This document shows positions 29,354 through 41,526 of a stretch of 64,000 bases of DNA, piece after piece (the stretch's first letter is position 1; the number at the start of each line of letters is the position of its first letter). The notes below the pieces were generated by a model. That model saw nothing but the letters and a program-made list of their open reading frames with translations, had not been told where the DNA came from and ran no database searches. Location: the NCBI RefSeq assembly GCF_008729015.1, contig NZ_RKSM01000001.1:868001-932000 (forward strand), read 5' to 3'. A program made the translations under genes and the position numbers. Source of the DNA: Haloarcula sp. CBA1129 (GTDB taxonomy: Archaea; Halobacteriota; Halobacteria; Halobacteriales; Haloarculaceae).

Positions 29354-31027
29354 CTACCCGATTCCGGTTTCCTTCTTCAACAGCGTTAGCGTGTTATCGG
29401 CCGTCACAATCAGCGAATGCTCGTATTCACCAGTTAGTTCGACCCGTACGAGCAGATCCACCGCTCGCCAAATCGAGTATAGCAGACACGCAAACGCGAA
29501 GTAGAAGAATCGTAACCCGAAATCCTTGGATGTCGTCGCGGCCATGAAGCGTTTGATCGACCGATAGCCGCTCTCAATCTCCCACCGGTACCCGTACTCA
29601 GTAAGGAAGCCACTACCGCGATTGGACATGAATACCGAGTACTGCCGGTAGTCGTCGTGTTCAGAATCCTCCTTCCGTCGGTAGATCAGCGTCGTCTCGT
29701 GCCATTCGTTCTTTCCGAGATGGAGCTTCCTGTCGGTCTCGTATCGGTCTTGACCCCGCTGGAGCAGGCGTTTGGCTTGGGCTCTCTCGCTGGTCTGCAT
29801 CCGCTTGGGCACGACATACGACAGTCTGCGCTGGCTGAGCATCTCCAGAATATGCTGGCTGTCGAACTCCCGATCCATCAACACGTTATCGACATGGACC
29901 AGTTCCTCGGCAGAGTTGAGCAAGTCTTCGACGATCTCTTTCCGACTCTCGCCCTTCCGAACTGGTCGCGCATCCAGTACGATTGGGACAGCGTTCCCGA
30001 CCAGTTGGACTGTCGCCCACTGGTAGGCGTACTCATCAGTTTGCTCTTTCGTTCCGATAATTTCGTCTTCATGCCCAGTCCTATCGCCTGTGAACGGGTC
30101 GGCTTCCGTAATATCGATAGCGACAATACCCGCTCGAACGAATTCCTCTCTCCCTGCTAACTCGTTCAATAGACGGTCAATTGCTTGGCGATACATCTCC
30201 CGAGACTGTTCAATCGACAGGTCGCGGATGTGCTCGCGATGAGCGTGACCCAGCGGTGTCCGATCCCGGGTCGATTCATAGACGAAGCTTCGGGCTCCTT
30301 CGTTAGCAGCCAGCCCCTCACGAAGTCCGAGATGCGTTTGTAAGTCCCAGTAGGCGTTCTCATGGATCTCACAGCCGTCGTCTCGATTCAGTGAGAAGGC
30401 TGGGAAGACGACACGGCTGACATGGTCCGTAATCGGTGCTGCTTCGTCGAGGATAGCTTGGTCACTAGTGTCTGATTCTTCCTCGTCACGCTGAAATGGA
30501 AGGTGTCGTTCTGGCTCTTGCGGAACAGCAACACCCGCGTCCTGAGCTTTGATTAGAACCGTCCGCGCAACCGCCTCAATTGTCTCACGAAACTCTGCAG
30601 TGAACCGTTCGTGCCATGTACGCCACAGCGTCGACTGGTCTGGGACGTTCCCCAAGCCCAGTTGCTCACGGAGGTTAGGGTGGTGGGTGAGGTACGTGAG
30701 AAGTGACGTTTCGTGGGTCCAGCCGTGAATTTCTTTGAGCAGAAACAGTCGGAACAGTTGGGTCATCCCGTACTGGGTGGCTTCCGAATACTGGTCGTGT
30801 GGTCGAAACTGAAAATACGCTACTGGGTAATGGGACGTAAACTCGTCGACGGAATTGTGGGCCTCGTGGTCGAACCATGTGGAGGCAACAGTCCGGATGT
30901 CTTCTTCGAGTCCGCCAAGAGAACTCCGGTCGTACAGTGGTGTCGAATCATATGCTGGCCACTCACTGTATGACTGTTGTGCGATCCGTCGAAAGACAGT
31001 GCGTTCAGAGTCACGAGTTGCAGCCAC
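29354..31027 (-). CDS. IS4-superfamily DDE transposase
   Basis: 557 residues. DDE blocks: GIVAIDITEADPF (first Asp), VLMDREFDS (second Asp), and YRWEIESGYRSIKRF carrying the Glu in the IS4 Y-R-E-K signature. The N-terminal ~200 residues form the helical DNA-binding part. Full length and open, so probably functional. Terminal inverted repeats could not be identified, so element borders are not called. Confidence 0.9.
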   Translation of the reverse strand: MAATRDSERTVFRRIAQQSYSEWPAYDSTPLYDRSSLGGLEEDIRTVASTWFDHEAHNSVDEFTSHYPVAYFQFRPHDQYSEATQYGMTQLFRLFLLKEIHGWTHETSLLTYLTHHPNLREQLGLGNVPDQSTLWRTWHERFTAEFRETIEAVARTVLIKAQDAGVAVPQEPERHLPFQRDEEESDTSDQAILDEAAPITDHVSRVVFPAFSLNRDDGCEIHENAYWDLQTHLGLREGLAANEGARSFVYESTRDRTPLGHAHREHIRDLSIEQSREMYRQAIDRLLNELAGREEFVRAGIVAIDITEADPFTGDRTGHEDEIIGTKEQTDEYAYQWATVQLVGNAVPIVLDARPVRKGESRKEIVEDLLNSAEELVHVDNVLMDREFDSQHILEMLSQRRLSYVVPKRMQTSERAQAKRLLQRGQDRYETDRKLHLGKNEWHETTLIYRRKEDSEHDDYRQYSVFMSNRGSGFLTEYGYRWEIESGYRSIKRFMAATTSKDFGLRFFYFAFACLLYSIWRAVDLLVRVELTGEYEHSLIVTADNTLTLLKKETGIG

Positions 31028-31217: not shown

Positions 31218-31646
31218 TTAGTAGCCGGGGGAGAACTCGTCGAAGAGGTCTTTGACACGGTGGGCTATATCGTCTCGGATCTCGCGGACACGTTCCATAT
31301 CTTGCCCATCAGGGTCGTCCAGTGCCCAATCACGGACATCGACGGTTTCCGCGTCGAGTTCCAAGGTCGAGCAGCCCATCGTTGCGACCATGTCACACGA
31401 TTCCAGTTCGGCTGTCGAGACTTTCCGAGGTATCCGGTCTGAGAGGTCAATGTCGAGTTCGCGCATGACCGTGACAACTTCCTCATGCACGTGATCAGCA
31501 GGCCGTGTCCCACCGGTAAGTATCTCGACGCTGGATTCGAGACCGCGCTGCTCACGTTCCTGCTCGGCGAAGGCTGCTGACATCTGACTCCGGCCGGCGT
31601 TCTGTACACAGACGAACCCAAATTTCGTTGTCGAGTTATCGGTCAT
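31218..31646 (-). CDS. arsC: Arsenate reductase, low-molecular-weight phosphatase type
   Basis: 142 residues from MTDNSTTKF. Signature loop VCVQNAGRSQ gives Cys13-X5-Arg19, and RDWALDDPDGQD near 105 supplies the catalytic Asp of the DP loop. MGCSTLELDAE carries a further Cys for the disulfide relay. It reduces arsenate to arsenite for removal. Downstream of arsR on the same strand and divergent from arsDA. Confidence 0.9.
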   Translation of the reverse strand: MTDNSTTKFGFVCVQNAGRSQMSAAFAEQEREQRGLESSVEILTGGTRPADHVHEEVVTVMRELDIDLSDRIPRKVSTAELESCDMVATMGCSTLELDAETVDVRDWALDDPDGQDMERVREIRDDIAHRVKDLFDEFSPGY

Positions 31647-31727
31647 AGGCACTCAATCCGGCGTGTCGGTAATAAACTCTCGTCTGTGAACTACACTGGT
31701 CGCTACAACTCTCAGTCGGTAGATCGT

Positions 31728-32117
31728 TCATTTCCGAGACCCGTCGAGTGCGACCAGCAGCGCGTTTGCCCGTGCTGTCGTTCGGTATTTCCGCCATCTC
31801 CCGTCTTTCCGGCGAGTCAGGAGTCCGGCATCGGTGAGCTGGGAGAGCGCGTGACTGATGGCGCTGTCGCTGACATCCAGCAGCGGCGAGAACTCACAGA
31901 CACAGAGCTCTCCGTCGGCAATGTGTAAGATCCGGACGATTTTGTACCGCGTTTCATTGGCGAGCGCGGACAACACACTTACGTCCGATTCAAGATCGGG
32001 ACCGCCCGCGGCCGCGTCCAGTTCTTCGAGTTCGGCGAGTCGCTGGTCCACTTCCGCATCACCACAGCTACCGCTTTCTTCGGAGAGATACCGTTGTAAC
32101 CGCTCGGTTGATGACAT
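31728..32117 (-). CDS. arsR: ArsR-family metalloregulator
   Basis: 129 residues. Winged-helix domain with Cys72 and Cys74 in ELCVCEFS, the As(III)-binding motif at the start of the recognition region, then DVSDSAISHALSQLTDAGLL. An extra Cys at 18 (SGSCGD) could be a third ligand. Arsenite binding should release it from the 430-bp divergent promoter region shared with arsD. Confidence 0.92.
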   Translation of the reverse strand: MSSTERLQRYLSEESGSCGDAEVDQRLAELEELDAAAGGPDLESDVSVLSALANETRYKIVRILHIADGELCVCEFSPLLDVSDSAISHALSQLTDAGLLTRRKDGRWRKYRTTARANALLVALDGSRK

Positions 32118-32551
32118 ACACATAGGTTGAGGAGATAGTAAAGTAAGTGTTGTGGAGTATAGGTTGCAAAAACAGCAACATCAAAACGAGATTGTTTTAG
32201 TATATACTCATTCATTACTGTATTGCAGCGGACAGCAACACGTAACCAGTATCATTGGCGAGGGGTGAGATGATAGAACCCGATAATACGGCTTAGAGCT
32301 CACATGAAACGATTAACTAGTACAAAATTTCGGGAGAAAAAGTGCGCTTAGTCTCGTCAGGAGATCCGCGCGCTGCCGTCGAGTAAACGCGGTCCTGATG
32401 ATGAACCGCGGGCAACGGACGGAATCGTTGGCTGACCGAAGGCTTGAAGTATATATGAATTAATGTTCAATTGAATCCGGCAGAATAGTTCCGATACGGT
32501 TGAAACTGACTCAAGCAGATTACCAATTCAATTGAACGACTCCGAAATACT
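32118..32551. promoter_or_regulatory. Divergent arsR / arsD control region
   Basis: Gene-free 430 bp between divergent ars genes, with A+T-rich tracts near 32150-32220 and 32455-32530. Near 32530 the bases TCAATTGAAC and upstream TTCAATTGAA form ATTGAA-type repeats close to arsD. ArsR operators are expected here, but I cannot define them. Confidence 0.5.
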
Positions 32552-32881
32552 ATGACTGAACTCACCCTGTACGAAGAAGCGATGTGTTGTTCCACCGGCG
32601 TCTGTGGACCGGACCCCGACGACGAACTCGTCGAGGTCAGCGCCGCCCTTGACCAACTCGAAGACGAGTACGATGTTGAGGTAGTGCGGGCGAATATGCA
32701 ACACAACATCGACCAGTTTCTGAACACCCAGCGCATCTACGATATGGTTCAGGAGAACGGTCCATCGATACTCCCGATTACTGTCGTCGACGGCGACATC
32801 GTCGCGAAATCGGAGTATCTCTCCTACGACGAACTCGCGAACGAACTGAGCGACGCGCAGAGTACCCCACAGGAAGCATAA
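32552..32881 (+). CDS. arsD: Arsenite metallochaperone ArsD
   Basis: 109 residues, thioredoxin-like. The metal site Cys12-Cys13-Cys18 (AMCCSTGVCGP) matches the bacterial ArsD positions exactly. ArsD hands As(III) or Sb(III) to ArsA. Four bases separate it from arsA, so one operon. No separate ars efflux permease is seen in the window. Confidence 0.92.
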   Translation: MTELTLYEEAMCCSTGVCGPDPDDELVEVSAALDQLEDEYDVEVVRANMQHNIDQFLNTQRIYDMVQENGPSILPITVVDGDIVAKSEYLSYDELANELSDAQSTPQEA

Positions 32882-32884
32882 CCG

Positions 32885-34810
32885 ATGAGTACACACACTG
32901 GAGCCAGGAAAATCGTCGAACCGAGCAGCGAAGATACCGAATTCGTTTTCTTCAGCGGGAAGGGTGGCGTCGGCAAGAGCACTGTCAGCTGTGCTACGGC
33001 GACGTGGTTAGCGGACAACGACTATGAAACACTGCTGGTAACAACTGACCCCGCGCCGAACCTCTCGGACATCTTCCAGCAGGAGATTGGCCACGAGGTG
33101 ACCGAAATCAACGATATCGGCAACCTCTCGGCCATCGAAATTGACCCGGATCAAGCCGCCGAGGAGTACCGCCAAGAGACCATCGAACCGATGCGGGAAC
33201 TGCTTGACGACGAACAGCTCGAGACCGTCGAGGAGCAACTCAACAGTCCGTGTGTCGATGAGATCGCGGCCTTCGACAATTTCGTCGACTTCATGGAGTC
33301 CCCGGAGTACGACGTGGTCGTCTTCGATACCGCACCGACTGGCCACACCATCCGATTGATGGAACTGCCCTCCGACTGGAACGCCGAACTGGAGAAGGGT
33401 GGCTCGACCTGTATCGGCCCTGCCGCCTCGATGGAGGACAAGAAGACCCAGTACGAGCGGGCCATCGACACGCTCCAAGATGACGAGCAGACGACCTTCG
33501 CGTTCGTCGGCAAGCCCGAGGACTCCTCGCTCGACGAAATAGAGCGCAGCGCTTCGGACTTGAGCGAACTTGGTATCAACTCACAGCTACTCGTGGTCAA
33601 CGGCTACCTCCCCGAGTCGGTCTGTGACGACCCCTTTTTCGAGGGGAAACGCGAGGACGAACAGGCGGTCGTCGAGCGGGCGAAGACCCAGTTCGACGCA
33701 GACGCCACAGCAACCTATCCACTCCAGCCCGGTGAGATCGCTGGCCTGGATTTGCTCTCTGATGTCGGCGGTGTCATTTACGACGGCGAGGAAGCGACCG
33801 TCGAAATTGGCTCTGCCACGGACGTCGACACCGACCAGTCAGTCAACGTCGAGACGCTGGCCGACCCCGAGTCGGTCGCCGAACAGTTGACGCCTGGCGA
33901 AGACACTCGCTACCTGTTCTTCACTGGGAAAGGCGGTGTCGGCAAGAGCACCGTCGCCGCGACATCGGCGACGAAGCTCGCGGAGGCCGGCTACCAGACG
34001 CTCGTCGTCACGACCGACCCGGCCGCTCATCTCGAAGACATCTTCGGCGAGCCGGTTGGCCACGAACCGACGTCGGTCAGTCAGGCGAATCTCGACGCGG
34101 CTCGCATCGACCAAGAGAAGGCCCTCGAAGAGTACCGCGAGCAGGTGCTATCCCACGTCCAGGAAATGTACGCGGACAAGGAGGACACCGAACTGGACGT
34201 TGAGGCTGCCATCGGTAACGTCGAGGAAGAGCTGGAGTCACCGTGTGCCGAAGAGATGGCCGCACTGGAGAAGTTCGTGAGCTACTTCCAGGAAGACGGC
34301 TACGATATTGTCGTCTTCGACACGGCCCCGACAGGCCACACGCTCCGCCTGCTGGAACTCCCGTCCGACTGGAAGGGCTTCATGGATCTGGGTTCACTGA
34401 CGAAGGGGGCCGCTCCGGCGAAGGGCGACCAGTACGACGAGGTCATCGAGACGATGCAGGACCCCGAGCAGAGTTCCTTCGCGTTCGTCATGTACCCCGA
34501 ATACACACCAATGATGGAGGCCTACCGTGCGGCTGAAGACCTCAAAGACCAGGTCGGTATCGAGACAGCCTTCGTCGTCGCGAACTACCTGTTGCCTGAG
34601 GAGTACGGCGATAACGCCTTCTTCGCGAATCGGCGAGCTCAGCAGGAAAAATACCTCGGCGAAATCAAGGACCGCTTCGAGACACCGATGATGCTCGCGC
34701 CGCTGCGTCGGGACGAACCGATCGGGCTGGACGAACTGCGCGCGTTCGGTGGCGAGATTACCGGTCTCTCGGACCTGACGGAGCGAGAGCAGGAGGTGAC
34801 CATCTCATGA
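32885..34810 (+). CDS. arsA: Arsenite-stimulated ATPase ArsA
   Basis: 641 residues in two homologous halves. P-loops GKGGVGKS at about 25-32 and 348-355; DTAPTGHT signature in both halves (about 149 and 482). Metal-site cysteines Cys123 (SPCVDEI), Cys176 (STCIGPA) and Cys454 (SPCAEEM) correspond to the three of bacterial ArsA. It drives arsenite export with a membrane partner that must be encoded elsewhere. Overlaps the next gene as ATGA. Confidence 0.95.
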   Translation: MSTHTGARKIVEPSSEDTEFVFFSGKGGVGKSTVSCATATWLADNDYETLLVTTDPAPNLSDIFQQEIGHEVTEINDIGNLSAIEIDPDQAAEEYRQETIEPMRELLDDEQLETVEEQLNSPCVDEIAAFDNFVDFMESPEYDVVVFDTAPTGHTIRLMELPSDWNAELEKGGSTCIGPAASMEDKKTQYERAIDTLQDDEQTTFAFVGKPEDSSLDEIERSASDLSELGINSQLLVVNGYLPESVCDDPFFEGKREDEQAVVERAKTQFDADATATYPLQPGEIAGLDLLSDVGGVIYDGEEATVEIGSATDVDTDQSVNVETLADPESVAEQLTPGEDTRYLFFTGKGGVGKSTVAATSATKLAEAGYQTLVVTTDPAAHLEDIFGEPVGHEPTSVSQANLDAARIDQEKALEEYREQVLSHVQEMYADKEDTELDVEAAIGNVEEELESPCAEEMAALEKFVSYFQEDGYDIVVFDTAPTGHTLRLLELPSDWKGFMDLGSLTKGAAPAKGDQYDEVIETMQDPEQSSFAFVMYPEYTPMMEAYRAAEDLKDQVGIETAFVVANYLLPEEYGDNAFFANRRAQQEKYLGEIKDRFETPMMLAPLRRDEPIGLDELRAFGGEITGLSDLTEREQEVTIS

Positions 34811-35175
34811 GCGAAGGGCAATCCTCTGAGGCCGCCGTTGAAGAGCAACTCCAGACATTCATGCAGACACTCACCGAGTCAGAGACCTATCAAGAGTTCG
34901 TTGAGGCCAGCGAAGCCCTTGAAGAGGACTCGGAGGCGTCGGCATTGCTGCAGGAATTCCAGCAAAAACAACGACAGATGCAACAAGGTGGGTTCGACCA
35001 ATCGCTCATGAGCGAACTCCAGGATCTCAAATTGGAGATGGACGAAACTGACACGATCCAGCGCCACCGCGAAGCGCAGGAAGCGCTTGTCGAACTGCTC
35101 CAGGAGACCAACGACGTAATAAGTGAGCAGATCGGTCAGCAGTTCGCCCAGTCAACTGGGGGTGGGTGCTGTTGA
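34807..35175 (+). CDS. YlbF-like helical protein with CC tail
   Basis: 122 residues, almost wholly helical (EQLQTFMQTLTESETYQEFV, LLQEFQQKQRQMQQ), similar to YlbF/YmcA-type proteins, but ending STGGGCC. The terminal vicinal cysteines, after a flexible Gly tract and in an arsenic operon, suggest As(III)/Sb(III) capture or delivery. Start overlaps arsA stop. Role inferred. Confidence 0.75.
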   Translation: MSEGQSSEAAVEEQLQTFMQTLTESETYQEFVEASEALEEDSEASALLQEFQQKQRQMQQGGFDQSLMSELQDLKLEMDETDTIQRHREAQEALVELLQETNDVISEQIGQQFAQSTGGGCC

Positions 35176-35354
35176 GTACCACCGACGAAGACATGTTAGA
35201 CGCGGCCGAAGCGCTCGGCGAGGAACTTGCAGCGATGCAGTCCGATGTGGATGACTTCGAGTTCGAGACTGTCCTGATACAGTGCAACGAGGCTATCAGC
35301 GAGGAGACAGGGATTCAGTACGACGACATCTGTGACACTGACGATTGCTGTTAA
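35172..35354 (+). CDS. Small acidic protein with CC tail
   Basis: About 60 residues. Starts TTG (35172) overlapping the previous stop, or GTG six bases upstream; no ATG fits the full reading. Sequence LIQCNEAISEETG, then DDICDTDDCC at the C terminus, giving four Cys. Like its neighbour it ends in vicinal Cys, so it is probably a small metalloid-binding partner of the ArsDA system. Confidence 0.7.
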   Translation: MSTTDEDMLDAAEALGEELAAMQSDVDDFEFETVLIQCNEAISEETGIQYDDICDTDDCC

Positions 35355-35547: not shown

Positions 35548-36039
35548 TCAATGCGACTGTCCCACACGGCGATCCTCAAGGAACTGCTGCATCCGTTCGA
35601 GTGCTGCCTGTGCCTCCGACCGGTTCTCCTGTAAATTCGATACGGTCGGCTCTGGGAGCCCTAATTCACCGGCCAAGAGGATCAGTCGGTCAAGGAGCGT
35701 GATTTCAAGTCGCTCGTTGATCATCCCGATGCTGATAACATCCAAGTCCCGGAGGTCGTCGTCTTCGACATCGAGAACGAACTGATCTTTCTCCGCGAGC
35801 AAGCCCTCCATGATCGGACTGCCCTGTTCGCGCGGTTCCATATCGAGTGCTGCGAAGATGGCTTCGATCCGGTCGATCTGGTCGACTGTATCGCCCTCGT
35901 GGCCGCCGAATATCGCCTCGACCTCGTCGCTCGCGGCCGCATCGGCGAGATCGCTGTGAAGATCGAGAATTTCGATCTCCGCGTGATACAGTTTCTGGAG
36001 TTCCCGGTCGAACAGTTCGCGCTTGGAAGTGATGGACAT
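35548..36039 (-). CDS. DUF892 (YciE/YciF-like) ferritin-fold protein
   Basis: 163 residues: RELFDRELQKLYHAEIEILDLHSDLADAA at the start is the DUF892 hallmark, followed by helices with acidic residues suited to a di-iron four-helix bundle (EAIFGGHEGDTVDQIDRIEAIF). Such proteins are stress-related and often plasmid-borne in haloarchaea. Six bases from the next gene on the same strand, so one operon with 36045. Confidence 0.85.
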   Translation of the reverse strand: MSITSKRELFDRELQKLYHAEIEILDLHSDLADAAASDEVEAIFGGHEGDTVDQIDRIEAIFAALDMEPREQGSPIMEGLLAEKDQFVLDVEDDDLRDLDVISIGMINERLEITLLDRLILLAGELGLPEPTVSNLQENRSEAQAALERMQQFLEDRRVGQSH

Positions 36040-36044
36040 CTTAC

Positions 36045-36614
36045 TCAGACCTCCTCAGAATCGTCCTCAATCAGTTGGTCCCGAAGACACTCCTGTACAA
36101 TGTCGGTATCAACAGCCCCGCTTTCCATAAGAAGGTAGAGACTGCCAGCAGACATAGGTTCGTCCGATTGGAGGTCCTCGAGGAGTTCTGGAATACCCAC
36201 GTCACTCGCCTGTATATCCAAGGAAACCGAATTAACGAGCAATCTGTCTCGGTGCCCGGCTCGTCGAAGGGCCGCTTCGAACAGCCGCTCGGGCACGGTG
36301 TCCTGCGGCACGTCCCCGTCCCGCATCAGTGTGGCGACGCCGACCGTTCGAAGGAGGAACGCGAGCCCATCGCGAACACCAGCCTGGAGGTCTTCGTCCG
36401 CAGTCTGCCACTGGCGTCCCCCATCGGTTATCTCACCAAAAATCTCGCGCCACTCATCGTCGTCCAATTCCTCGAGTAGAATGGAAAAGTCCAGTATCGA
36501 ATTGTAAACGCGCTCGCGAATGTCCCGCCGGCGCTGATACCGTTGCTGTTTCGCGTGTTGTCCGTCATACACCTTCTCACCGGTCAACCACCGCCGATCC
36601 TCGGTGGTGAGCAT
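36045..36614 (-). CDS. Hypothetical protein with the QRYQxRxxIRxRV module
   Basis: 189 residues from MLTTEDRRWLTG (an in-frame ATG seven codons upstream is possible). N-terminal module QRYQRRRDIRERVYNSILDF matches the protein at 16019. The C-terminal half is helical with SVSLDIQASDVG, unrecognised. Probably cotranscribed with the DUF892 gene downstream. Confidence 0.75.
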   Translation of the reverse strand: MLTTEDRRWLTGEKVYDGQHAKQQRYQRRRDIRERVYNSILDFSILLEELDDDEWREIFGEITDGGRQWQTADEDLQAGVRDGLAFLLRTVGVATLMRDGDVPQDTVPERLFEAALRRAGHRDRLLVNSVSLDIQASDVGIPELLEDLQSDEPMSAGSLYLLMESGAVDTDIVQECLRDQLIEDDSEEV

Positions 36615-36740
36615 CGCGTTCTTCCTGCCGGTCATAAACGGGACGAGGGTGGCGAGCGGAATAAAACCCAGTCAAAAGTAAATCGATTATAATAGACCAA
36701 TATGAAAAAATAATTTATTCCTCAGGAACAATGATGAAGT

Positions 36741-36959: not shown

Positions 36960-37194
36960 CTCCACCGTTCTTTTTGCGGAATGGTCGTCAAAAACCGGAT
37001 GATTACCGTGGCCACCGTCTTTGACGTCTCGCTAAGCAGTATATCGACCATATTTGAACCTCCAAAGTTCGGCCGGAACTCCGAAATCACCACACTGGTT
37101 TGGCCGCTCATATCGGGTCCTTCGGTCTACCGACGGCAGTCAATCGGTGTATCGGCCGGAAAGGTCCACAAATAGTACTATTTCACTGGGAACG

Positions 37195-38581
37195 ATGGAA
37201 GAAGAGCATCAGGAAGAAAAAGAGCAATCAAAGGAGCAGCCGGCGACCGCCCCGACGCTTCGAGAAGCGACGTGGACGTGGGCGCGGGTCGCAGCGTCCA
37301 GCTTCGGCGGACCAGCCGGGCAAATCGCGGTTATGTCCCGATATATCGTCGACGAACAGGGGGTGGGTGAGCGAACGACGCTTCCTGCACGCGCTCAACT
37401 ACACGATGCTGTTGCCCGGGCCGGAAGCCCAGCAGCTGTCGGTCTATCTCGGCTGGCTGCTCAACGGCACCAGAGGCGGCCTCATCGCCGGCTGGCTGTT
37501 CGTCCTCCCCGGCTTCCTCTCGATCCTGGGCCTGAGCATCTTCTATGTGACCTACCGGGAACTCACGGTCGTCACCGGCCTGCTGTTCGGCCTGAAGGCA
37601 GCCGTCCTCGTGATCGTGTTCGCGGCCGTGCTCGGCTTGAGTCGGCGCGTGTTCGAGAACCGCCCGATGATCCTGCTAGCTATCGCTGCGTTCATCGGTA
37701 TGTACGTTTTCAACGTCCCGTTTCCGCTCATCATCACCACCGCCGGTTTGATCGGCTATCTCGGATACCGAATCGCACCGGACGTGTTCACCGTCGTGAC
37801 CGGCTACGACGCTGACGCCACCACAGCTGTCATCTCCGATGCGCCGTCTGTCTCCCGGCCGTCGAAACGACGGGCGCTGGTAACGCTGGTCACCTGGCTG
37901 ATCGTCTGGTTCGCCCCGCTGCTCGTTCTCGGTGTGTTCCTCGGCCGGAGCAACGTCCTCGTCAAGGAGGGACTATTCTTCAGCGTCGTCGCGACGGTCT
38001 CATTCGGTGGCGCCTATGCGGCGTTAGCCTACGTCGCTCAAGAGGCCGTGCTCACCTACGAGTGGCTGCTCCCCGGGGAGATGCTCGACGGGCTCGGATT
38101 CGCGGGCACGACACCCGGGCCGCTCATCCAGGTCGTCCAGTTTGTCGGCTTCATGGGCGCCTATCGGAACCCCGGCGCGCTGGATCCACTGGTCGCTGGC
38201 ATCGCGGGCTCACTCGTCGTGACGTGGGTAACCTTCGTCCCCAGTTTCCTGTGGATCTTCATGGGCGCACCGTACATCGAGTACCTTCGTGGGCGGACGT
38301 CGATCACGGCCGCACTGTCCGCCGTCACAGCGGCCGTCGTCGGTGTCATCGTGAACCTCGGCCTCTGGTTCGCTGTTCAGACGCTCTTCGAGTCGACCGT
38401 CGTCGTCGACAGCTACGGGATGCGACTGTTGCTCCCGGTCGTCGCCTCGGTCAATCTGCCGGCGCTCGGGATCGCAGTACTCGCCGGCGTCCTCCATCTC
38501 CGATTCGACCAGAGCGTCCTGCGAACGATTGGAGTTGGTGTCATCGCCGGTATCGCGTACGAACTGCTCGTCGTATTGTGA
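37195..38581 (+). pseudogene. chrA: Chromate transporter ChrA, frameshifted
   Basis: The N-terminal frame from 37195 reads TLREATWTWARVAASSFGGP and QIAVMSRYIVDEQG, then loses frame; the rest (GWVSERRFLHALNYTMLLPG through ELLVVL) is in another frame. One extra G in the G5 run at 37359-37363 explains the break. Apart from this the ~460-residue protein with two ChrA halves is complete and would export chromate. Frameshift, assembly error and slippage cannot be told apart here. Confidence 0.85.
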
Positions 38582-40161: not shown

Positions 40162-41526
40162 ATGAGTCAGGAACAGGTGTCCGTCGACGCCGAGGAAACA
40201 GGTCCATTAGACACCTTTCGGCAGTTCTTCGCCTTAGAGCGGGACGTGCTCGTGCTGTCGCTTGCGATGTTCGCCTTCAGTCTCGGCTTCCAGATGACCA
40301 GTCGGTTTCTCCCCGAATACATGGTCGCGCTCGGCGCCTCTGGGTTCGTGGTCGGGCTGTTCGGGACTATCGGGAACATCATTTCAGCTGTGTTTCCGTA
40401 TCCGGGCGGGGCTATTTCGGACCGCATCGGCTCCCGCTACGCACTGACCCTATTCGGGTTGATTTCGACGCTCGGCTTCGGGGTCTGGTTGGTCGCGCCA
40501 AATCTCGGGACGTTCGCCGTCGCCGGCGTGACGATCCAGCCCTGGATCTGGATTTTCGTCGGCCTCTTGCTCGCGCAAGGGTGGAAGTCGTTCGGGCTGG
40601 GCGCGACGTTCGCGGTCGTCAAGCAGGCGACCGACCCCTCGCGGCTGGCCGCCGGTTTCGCCAGCACGGAGACGTTTCGCCGGACGGCGTTTCTCATTGG
40701 GCCAGTGCTCGCGGCTGTCCTCATCGGCTTCCACCCGGATTTCACGGTGAGCTTCCAGTACGTCCTTGCCGTCGCCGTCATCTTCGGGATTATCGGAACC
40801 GTCGCCCAGCATCTCCTCTATGATGCCAGCGAAGATGCTATCGGTGACTCCTTCGAGGGGATCGACCAGATCAGACGCGACCTGCGGAATATGCCCGACC
40901 CACTCCGCCCGCTACTGGTCGGAGATACGCTCGTCCGGTTCGCTAACGGGATGGTGTACGTCTTTTTCGTGCTTGTGATCACCCAGTTCTACCAAGTCGG
41001 CTTCGAGACGACTGTTTCGCTGGCCAGCTTTTCGTATGCGATCGATCTCTCACCGGAGGGGTTCTTCGGTTATCTGCTCGGCGTCGAGATGCTGATTGCG
41101 CTGTTGATCATGGCACCCGCAGCGAAACTCGCCGAACGAGTCGGCCTCAAGCCCATCGTCGCGCTGGGGTTCGCCGTCTACGCGTTATTCCCGATCGTCC
41201 TTATCGGCGGGCCGGAGGTCCTTGACCCGGTAATGCCGCTCCAGTGGGCCATGGTCCTCATCTTCGCGTTCTCTGGCCTTCGGTTTGCGGGGCTGCCCTC
41301 ACACAAGGCGCTGATCGTTGGGCCCGCCGAAGCCGGCGCTGGCGGACGTGTCACCGGTACCTACTACCTCCTCCGGAATACCGTCGTTATTCCGAGTGCC
41401 GCTCTTGGCGGGTATCTCTGGGAGTTCGTCAATCCAGAAATCGCGTTCACTATCGCAGCAGTCATCGGCGTCGTCGGGACGGGTTACTTCCTGGTGTTCG
41501 GCGAAGAGTTTGAGGCGTATGTCTGA
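40162..41526 (+). CDS. Major facilitator superfamily transporter
   Basis: 454 residues with 12 predicted membrane helices. The GGAISDRIGSRYALTLFG loop after helix 2 is the MFS A-motif (G-x3-D-R-x-G-R/S). A large central cytoplasmic loop (about 225-260) separates the halves. Substrate cannot be told from sequence; the neighbourhood of chrA and ars genes suggests a resistance exporter, which is inference. Confidence 0.88.
   Translation: MSQEQVSVDAEETGPLDTFRQFFALERDVLVLSLAMFAFSLGFQMTSRFLPEYMVALGASGFVVGLFGTIGNIISAVFPYPGGAISDRIGSRYALTLFGLISTLGFGVWLVAPNLGTFAVAGVTIQPWIWIFVGLLLAQGWKSFGLGATFAVVKQATDPSRLAAGFASTETFRRTAFLIGPVLAAVLIGFHPDFTVSFQYVLAVAVIFGIIGTVAQHLLYDASEDAIGDSFEGIDQIRRDLRNMPDPLRPLLVGDTLVRFANGMVYVFFVLVITQFYQVGFETTVSLASFSYAIDLSPEGFFGYLLGVEMLIALLIMAPAAKLAERVGLKPIVALGFAVYALFPIVLIGGPEVLDPVMPLQWAMVLIFAFSGLRFAGLPSHKALIVGPAEAGAGGRVTGTYYLLRNTVVIPSAALGGYLWEFVNPEIAFTIAAVIGVVGTGYFLVFGEEFEAYV

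Follow-up and report, generated by a model that had tools for sequence, protein, structure and literature searches.

Two small proteins with Cys-Cys tails accompany ArsD and ArsA in haloarchaeal arsenic operons

In haloarchaea, the gene for the double-domain arsenite ATPase ArsA is followed almost invariably by two small genes, hcsL and hcsS, whose products end in a pair of vicinal cysteines. We consider it somewhat probable that the products, HcsL and HcsS, assemble into a helical complex which takes As(III)/Sb(III) on its thiol tails and works with ArsA and ArsD. Here, we describe the pair in one haloarchaeal ars locus, contained in a 64-kb stretch of DNA (the window), together with its distribution, its conserved cysteines, its relation to known arsenic pumps, and the kinship of both proteins to the YlbF/Ric family.

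Results

The core of the locus is a tightly packed run of four genes on the + strand. The metallochaperone gene arsD (32552..32881; NF033727, 115 bits, cut-off 90) and arsA (32885..34810; ArsA_halo, NF041417, 1153 bits, cut-off 800) are followed by hcsL (34807..35175; NF041416 and PF06133), encoding a 122-aa protein of the YlbF/RicF fold that ends in STGGGCC, and by hcsS (35172..35354; NF041415), encoding a 60-aa acidic protein, a predicted mini-YlbF, that ends in CDTDDCC. The hcsL ATG overlaps the arsA stop by four bases (ATGA), the TTG start of hcsS at 35172 likewise overlaps the hcsL stop by four bases (TTGA), and the CC codons of hcsL overlap the hcsS start. The initial annotation had described two small proteins with CC tails and overlapping starts after arsA, and the coordinates, both overlaps and both tails were confirmed. 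An alternative GTG start for hcsS at 35166 gives a 62-aa protein, starting as in the NCBI annotation of the homologue from Halobacterium NRC-1. Asp plus Glu make up 33% of HcsS, and Lys and Arg are absent from it. Among hcsL genes, those of Haloarcula argentinensis (94%) and Har. vallismortis (93%) are the closest.

Upstream, on the − strand, lie arsR (31728..32123; NF033788, 75 bits, cut-off 55), encoding an ArsR/SmtB repressor that carries the metalloid-sensing-type motif ELCVCEF, and a divergent arsC-like gene (31218..31652; PF01451, 2.1e-29) of the low-molecular-weight phosphatase-type arsenate reductases, which matches arsenate reductase models weakly and below cut-off. The palindrome TTCAATTGAA occurs just upstream of arsD in two copies (32466..32536, starts 32466 and 32527), the only ones in the 64 kb and both at most 90 bases from arsD; we infer that this pair is likely the ArsR operator. 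Among related loci, TTCAATTGAA or its TTCANNTGAA variant lies roughly 81–92 bases upstream of arsD in a minority, any TTCANNTGAA occurs within 250 bp in 17 of 49, and most have no copy of the palindrome. Adjoining arsC, a transposase-like ORF of 557 aa occupies positions 29354–31027 of the window; the same ORF family is present in seven of the loci analysed, so the ars island looks mobile. On the other side, a DUF892 (ferritin-like) gene and a hypothetical gene (35548–36635) are convergent with hcsS.

Both small proteins score above the cut-offs of existing NCBIfam families, HcsL with 165.3 bits (NF041416, cut-off 140) over 113/113 positions and HcsS with 93.1 bits (NF041415, cut-off 55) over 55/55 positions. 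NCBIfam names these families HcsL and HcsS ("halo-CC-star") without assigning a function, and NCBI annotation places them next to arsA; 'CC-star' evidently stands for Cys-Cys-stop. A literature search for 'HcsL/HcsS' or 'halo-CC-star' found no paper. The novelty of the present work is limited in that the family names and the CC tails are already catalogued by NCBI.

HcsL is a member of Com_YlbF (PF06133, 64.4 bits against a gathering score of 23.9, 1.5e-17). Its AlphaFold model is an all-helical YlbF fold with a pLDDT of 86, falling below 50 at residues 119–122, which are predicted to be disordered. A Foldseek search with this model returned RicF (6prk, TM 0.73) as the best match and RicA at 0.66–0.68, and the same two proteins are its best relatives by sequence; the YlbF-like label given at the outset therefore holds. 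We also considered kinship with Get1, attractive in that Get1 binds an ArsA homologue, and rejected it, the PDB matches being at chance level (E ~0.7). No relative was found on viral contigs.

HcsS itself has no Pfam match, PF06133 included, and its structure model (pLDDT 69, pTM 0.33) was too uncertain for a structure search. Profile comparison was more revealing. Residues 26–60 of HcsS align with the C-terminal helix plus tail of both HcsL (probability 90, E = 1.5e-6) and core YlbF (E = 2.3e-6); residues 26–53 alone match the C-terminal helix with E values of about 4e-8 to 8e-8, with flat negative controls. With the tail removed, the HcsS–HcsL score was 30, whereas none of 100 column shuffles exceeded 17. 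HcsS gave nothing against the N-terminal part of HcsL or against reversed profiles, and these controls, together with the shuffles, rule out mere helix composition as the source of the similarity. A weaker match in the right order, between HcsS 3–21 and core YlbF 11–29 (E = 0.002), would fit a protein that has lost the middle part of the YlbF fold. By these sequence comparisons, HcsS is predicted to be a mini-YlbF homologous to the C-terminus of HcsL and YlbF.

To determine how closely the pair is tied to the ars module, we surveyed 293 haloarchaeal genomes. There, hcsL lies directly downstream of arsA on the same strand at 51/52 ArsA_halo loci, hcsS is the next gene at 50 of the 52 hcsL loci, and 50 of 54 hcsS matches adjoin hcsL; ArsD co-occurs with the hcs genes in the same genomes. 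Homologues are thus found almost exclusively in arsDA operons, and the possibility, raised beforehand as damaging to an arsenic role, that they would lie mostly elsewhere did not materialize. The four hcsS matches with no neighbouring hcsL comprise two fused remnants, a partial match whose HcsS tail is normal, and a match of marginal significance (E = 0.007). Orphan HcsS loci might have pointed to a role unrelated to arsenic, a reading we rejected: in genomes G014 and G173 they are remnants into which parts of hcsL or arsA have been fused in frame, and the G185 locus is actually what is left of an hcsL whose tail is frameshifted. All three of these loci lack intact arsDA, and their hcs genes are decayed. 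The sole ArsA_halo gene without the pair (G010, L065:1-6641) is also missing arsD; it adjoins an operon encoding a molybdopterin oxidoreductase together with a 4Fe-4S protein and an NrfD-like membrane subunit, and the oxidoreductase is not ArrA by the curated cut-off. At one further locus (G291, L070:5641-6734), an insertion of roughly 1.1 kb with a transposase-like ORF interrupts hcsL, and acr3 lies nearby.

Carriers of the pair span many genera and families and often hold it on plasmids, a distribution that a transferred module would be expected to show. HcsL and HcsS correlate in their pairwise distances (r = 0.87), as do ArsD and ArsA (r = 0.88), with cross pairs at 0.59–0.68. At the sequence level this pattern suggests two tight pairs, which does not in itself prove contact, and the HcsL–HcsS value may stem partly from similar evolutionary rates.

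Haloarchaea are not the only hosts of the pair. Two genomes that belong to the same phylum but to a different order (L137:6710-11206 and L138:4219-8883) have the gene order arsR-arsD-CMD/AhpD-like-arsA-hcsL-hcsS-acr3, with acr3 (>450 bits) beginning about 20 bases past hcsS and with HcsL tails of RRGGCC and RQGGCC, respectively. Haloarchaeal operons have no counterpart of the CMD-family gene that separates arsD from arsA here. Another non-haloarchaeal genome of the phylum carries a tandem hcsL-hcsS-hcsL-hcsS array (L139:6929-8213) in which the CC pairs have become GGCY and GGCR; ars genes are absent within 15 kb of it.

We next explored the conservation of the cysteines, the other point on which the initial annotation had said that its reading could be refuted; the tails proved to be conserved, and the reading withstood this check too. 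The terminal CC is present in 47/47 distinct intact HcsL sequences, whose only conserved cysteines these are, and in 42/47 HcsS sequences, the other five being without the final pair; in HcsS the final Cys is kept in 47/47, C54 in 46/47 and C38 in 43/47. The invariant HcsL tail is all the more striking in that median pairwise identity is only 55% for HcsL as against 84% for ArsA. Terminal CC occurs in 2 of 387 other predicted ORFs of at least 100 aa in the same loci, so its frequency in HcsL and HcsS exceeds chance. The partner proteins keep their cysteines as well: ArsA Cys123, Cys176 and Cys454 stand at the positions of E. coli Cys113, 172 and 422 and are conserved, together with C36 and C247, in 48/48 sequences, and ArsD Cys12, Cys13 and Cys18 in 46/46. 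With these metalloid-binding residues intact, the ATPase and the chaperone look fully competent for As(III).

A thiol tail is not confined to the arsenic proteins. Haloarchaea also encode a chromosomal YlbF paralog (L002:1453-1851 and 25 orthologues) with an invariant AGGCC near the C-terminus, GGCC being followed by 1–3 residues at 26/26 loci; HcsL and these paralogs form two separate clades with 100/100 support. The one paralog locus examined, a 3.3-kb stretch in its own genome, has no ars genes. The tail thus predates the arsenic role, and either a pre-existing thiol tail was recruited or both HcsL and the paralog may bind metal or cycle redox. Taking the CC pair as the mark of an arsenic protein is therefore an oversimplification. 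The paralog also disposes of the idea that the tail is an artefact of overlapping hcsL and hcsS, since core YlbF keeps GGCC with no overlap and with residues following it. Overall, the initial interpretation pointed in the right direction, was incomplete on the origin of the tail, and is partly supported.

Finally, we asked which exporters accompany the pair, surveying Acr3, SBF, ArsB and ArsP families, a set that leaves aquaglyceroporins or MFS proteins as possible exporters. Across its whole genome, the window organism has no match to Acr3 (E ≤ 1e-30), ArsB (1e-5) or ArsP (1e-8), and neither of its two SBF-family proteins is Acr3. The initial remark that no efflux pump is encoded here thus extends genome-wide for the known arsenic pumps; other transporters do lie 1.7–6 kb downstream of the operon, a CHR-type chromate transporter (37100–38581) and an MFS transporter (40162–41526), and both fall outside the gene families that recur in at least four of the related loci. 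Among 46 carriers, 16 have Acr3 above the cut-off, and in 12 of these the gene lies no more than about 10 kb from the operon, while the other 30 have none above it; G023 (a single contig), G054, G064 and G144 have no Acr3, SBF-, ArsB- or ArsP-family matches. Acr3 is rarer in carriers than in other haloarchaea (16/46 vs 148/247, P = 0.002, Fisher test, not corrected for phylogeny). Since the pair travels with Acr3 in these 12 haloarchaeal genomes and lies directly upstream of it in the two non-haloarchaeal ones, the notion that it simply replaces a pump had to be abandoned. In Halobacterium NRC-1, hcsL and hcsS again directly follow arsD-arsA, between arsA and arsR2M. Deletion of arsADRC in this organism is reported to cause As(III)/Sb(III) sensitivity, with arsB playing no role, and a novel transporter has been proposed (reviewed in PMC3600143); the missing known pump in the window genome fits these genetics.

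Discussion

We propose that the ArsD-ArsA arsenite/antimonite resistance module has HcsL and HcsS as its dedicated accessory proteins, and that both descend from the YlbF/Ric family: HcsL has kept the full length, HcsS little more than the C-terminal helix and the tail. As(III) and Sb(III) favor coordination by three thiols, and the two thiols of HcsL together with the three or four of HcsS could make up such a site. In Bacillus, RicA and RicF dimerise via the YlbF fold and contribute cysteines, from C-terminal tails that are disordered, to a metal site or cluster completed by a partner (PMC6751060). By analogy, HcsL and HcsS would probably associate into a helical complex displaying two flexible cysteine-ended tails. 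Its thiol site would exchange metalloid with ArsD/ArsA, as acceptor or as donor, and would hand it to an efflux step (Acr3 where present, a putative other exporter elsewhere) or act as a buffer.

Behind this proposal stand the observed linkage, co-inheritance, tail-cysteine invariance, fold and HcsS–HcsL homology. We also count in its favor the tail erosion in the tandem array with no ars genes nearby, and the decay of hcs genes in G014, G173 and G185. Counting against it are the HcsS sequences that have lost the final pair, the G010 ArsA_halo without hcs genes and the interrupted hcsL of G291, as well as the fact that bacterial ArsDA systems function without hcs genes. The GGCC of the chromosomal paralogs likewise tells against it, in that the cysteines may serve redox or Fe-S chemistry.

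One such alternative, which we regard as unlikely, is that HcsL-HcsS works as a Ric-like sensor, based on Fe-S or redox chemistry, that carries a cluster or a disulfide on its tails and controls the operon or its mRNA; arsenic would then be sensed through cluster damage and not bound for transport. This would suit the closeness of HcsL to RicF and RicA, whose tail cysteines ligate [4Fe-4S] together with RicT (PMC6751060), and the GGCC tail common to chromosomal YlbF. However, RicAF Fe-S ligation needs RicT (PSP1, PF04468), which we found in 0/9 haloarchaeal genomes, vicinal cysteines ligating one cluster were almost unknown to the Ric authors (PMC6751060), and a dedicated ArsR is already in place. 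Alternatively, HcsL and HcsS could be a pure thiol sink, sequestering cytosolic As(III) with no hand-over to a pump. We think this quite improbable: the 30 carriers with no Acr3 above the cut-off, four of them also without SBF, ArsB and ArsP matches, speak for it, but two cysteines per 122 aa make a poor store where cysteine-rich proteins would be expected, the ATP-driven ArsA would be left purposeless, and outside haloarchaea the pair sits directly upstream of acr3. Very improbable, in our estimate, is that the tails are not metalloid carriers and instead donate electrons to reduce ArsC or disulfides of ArsA/ArsD. An arsC-like reductase does require a thiol reductant, and a flexible vicinal CC tail recalls the redox tails of, for example, thioredoxin reductases, yet hcsLS track arsDA and not arsC, and at least five loci with hcsLS (L046, L049, L056, L057 and L059) have no arsC-like gene seen nearby.

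A stronger version of our preferred reading, which we hold to be rather doubtful, is that HcsL-HcsS is a new metalloid hand-over device, in which the tails would jointly cage As(III) and ArsA would drive its removal without ArsB or Acr3 via a putative exporter or carrier. If true, this would account for the arsB-independent, ArsA-dependent resistance reported in Halobacterium NRC-1. Two conserved genes right after NRC-1 arsA are missing from the account given in the review (PMC3600143), and hcsL and hcsS are the first candidates for the missing step, with predictions at the level of single tail cysteines in a genetically tractable archaeon. The pair further suggests that the YlbF/Ric fold has been put to a new use, as a scaffold for paired thiol tails.

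Relative to known systems, the families are the same as NCBIfam HcsL and HcsS; added here are the homology of HcsS to HcsL/YlbF, which to our knowledge has not been described before, the greater age of the tail, the spread of the pair to acr3 operons outside haloarchaea, and the fit to the NRC-1 question. Like RicA-RicF (YmcA-YlbF) of Bacillus, HcsL and HcsS combine the Com_YlbF fold, a disordered cysteine tail and two related subunits; unlike them, they carry vicinal CC at the very end and belong to an ars operon, HcsS has shed most of the fold, and the RicT partner of RicAFT was not found in the nine haloarchaeal genomes tested. The chromosomal haloarchaeal YlbF paralog shares family and AGGCC with HcsL and differs in the 1–3 residues that follow its CC. 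In common with ArsDA-Acr3 (or ArsB) efflux, the genes lie in the same operon and ArsA and ArsD keep all metalloid-binding cysteines, whereas the haloarchaeal module adds two thiol-tailed proteins, and no known pump was found in the window genome.
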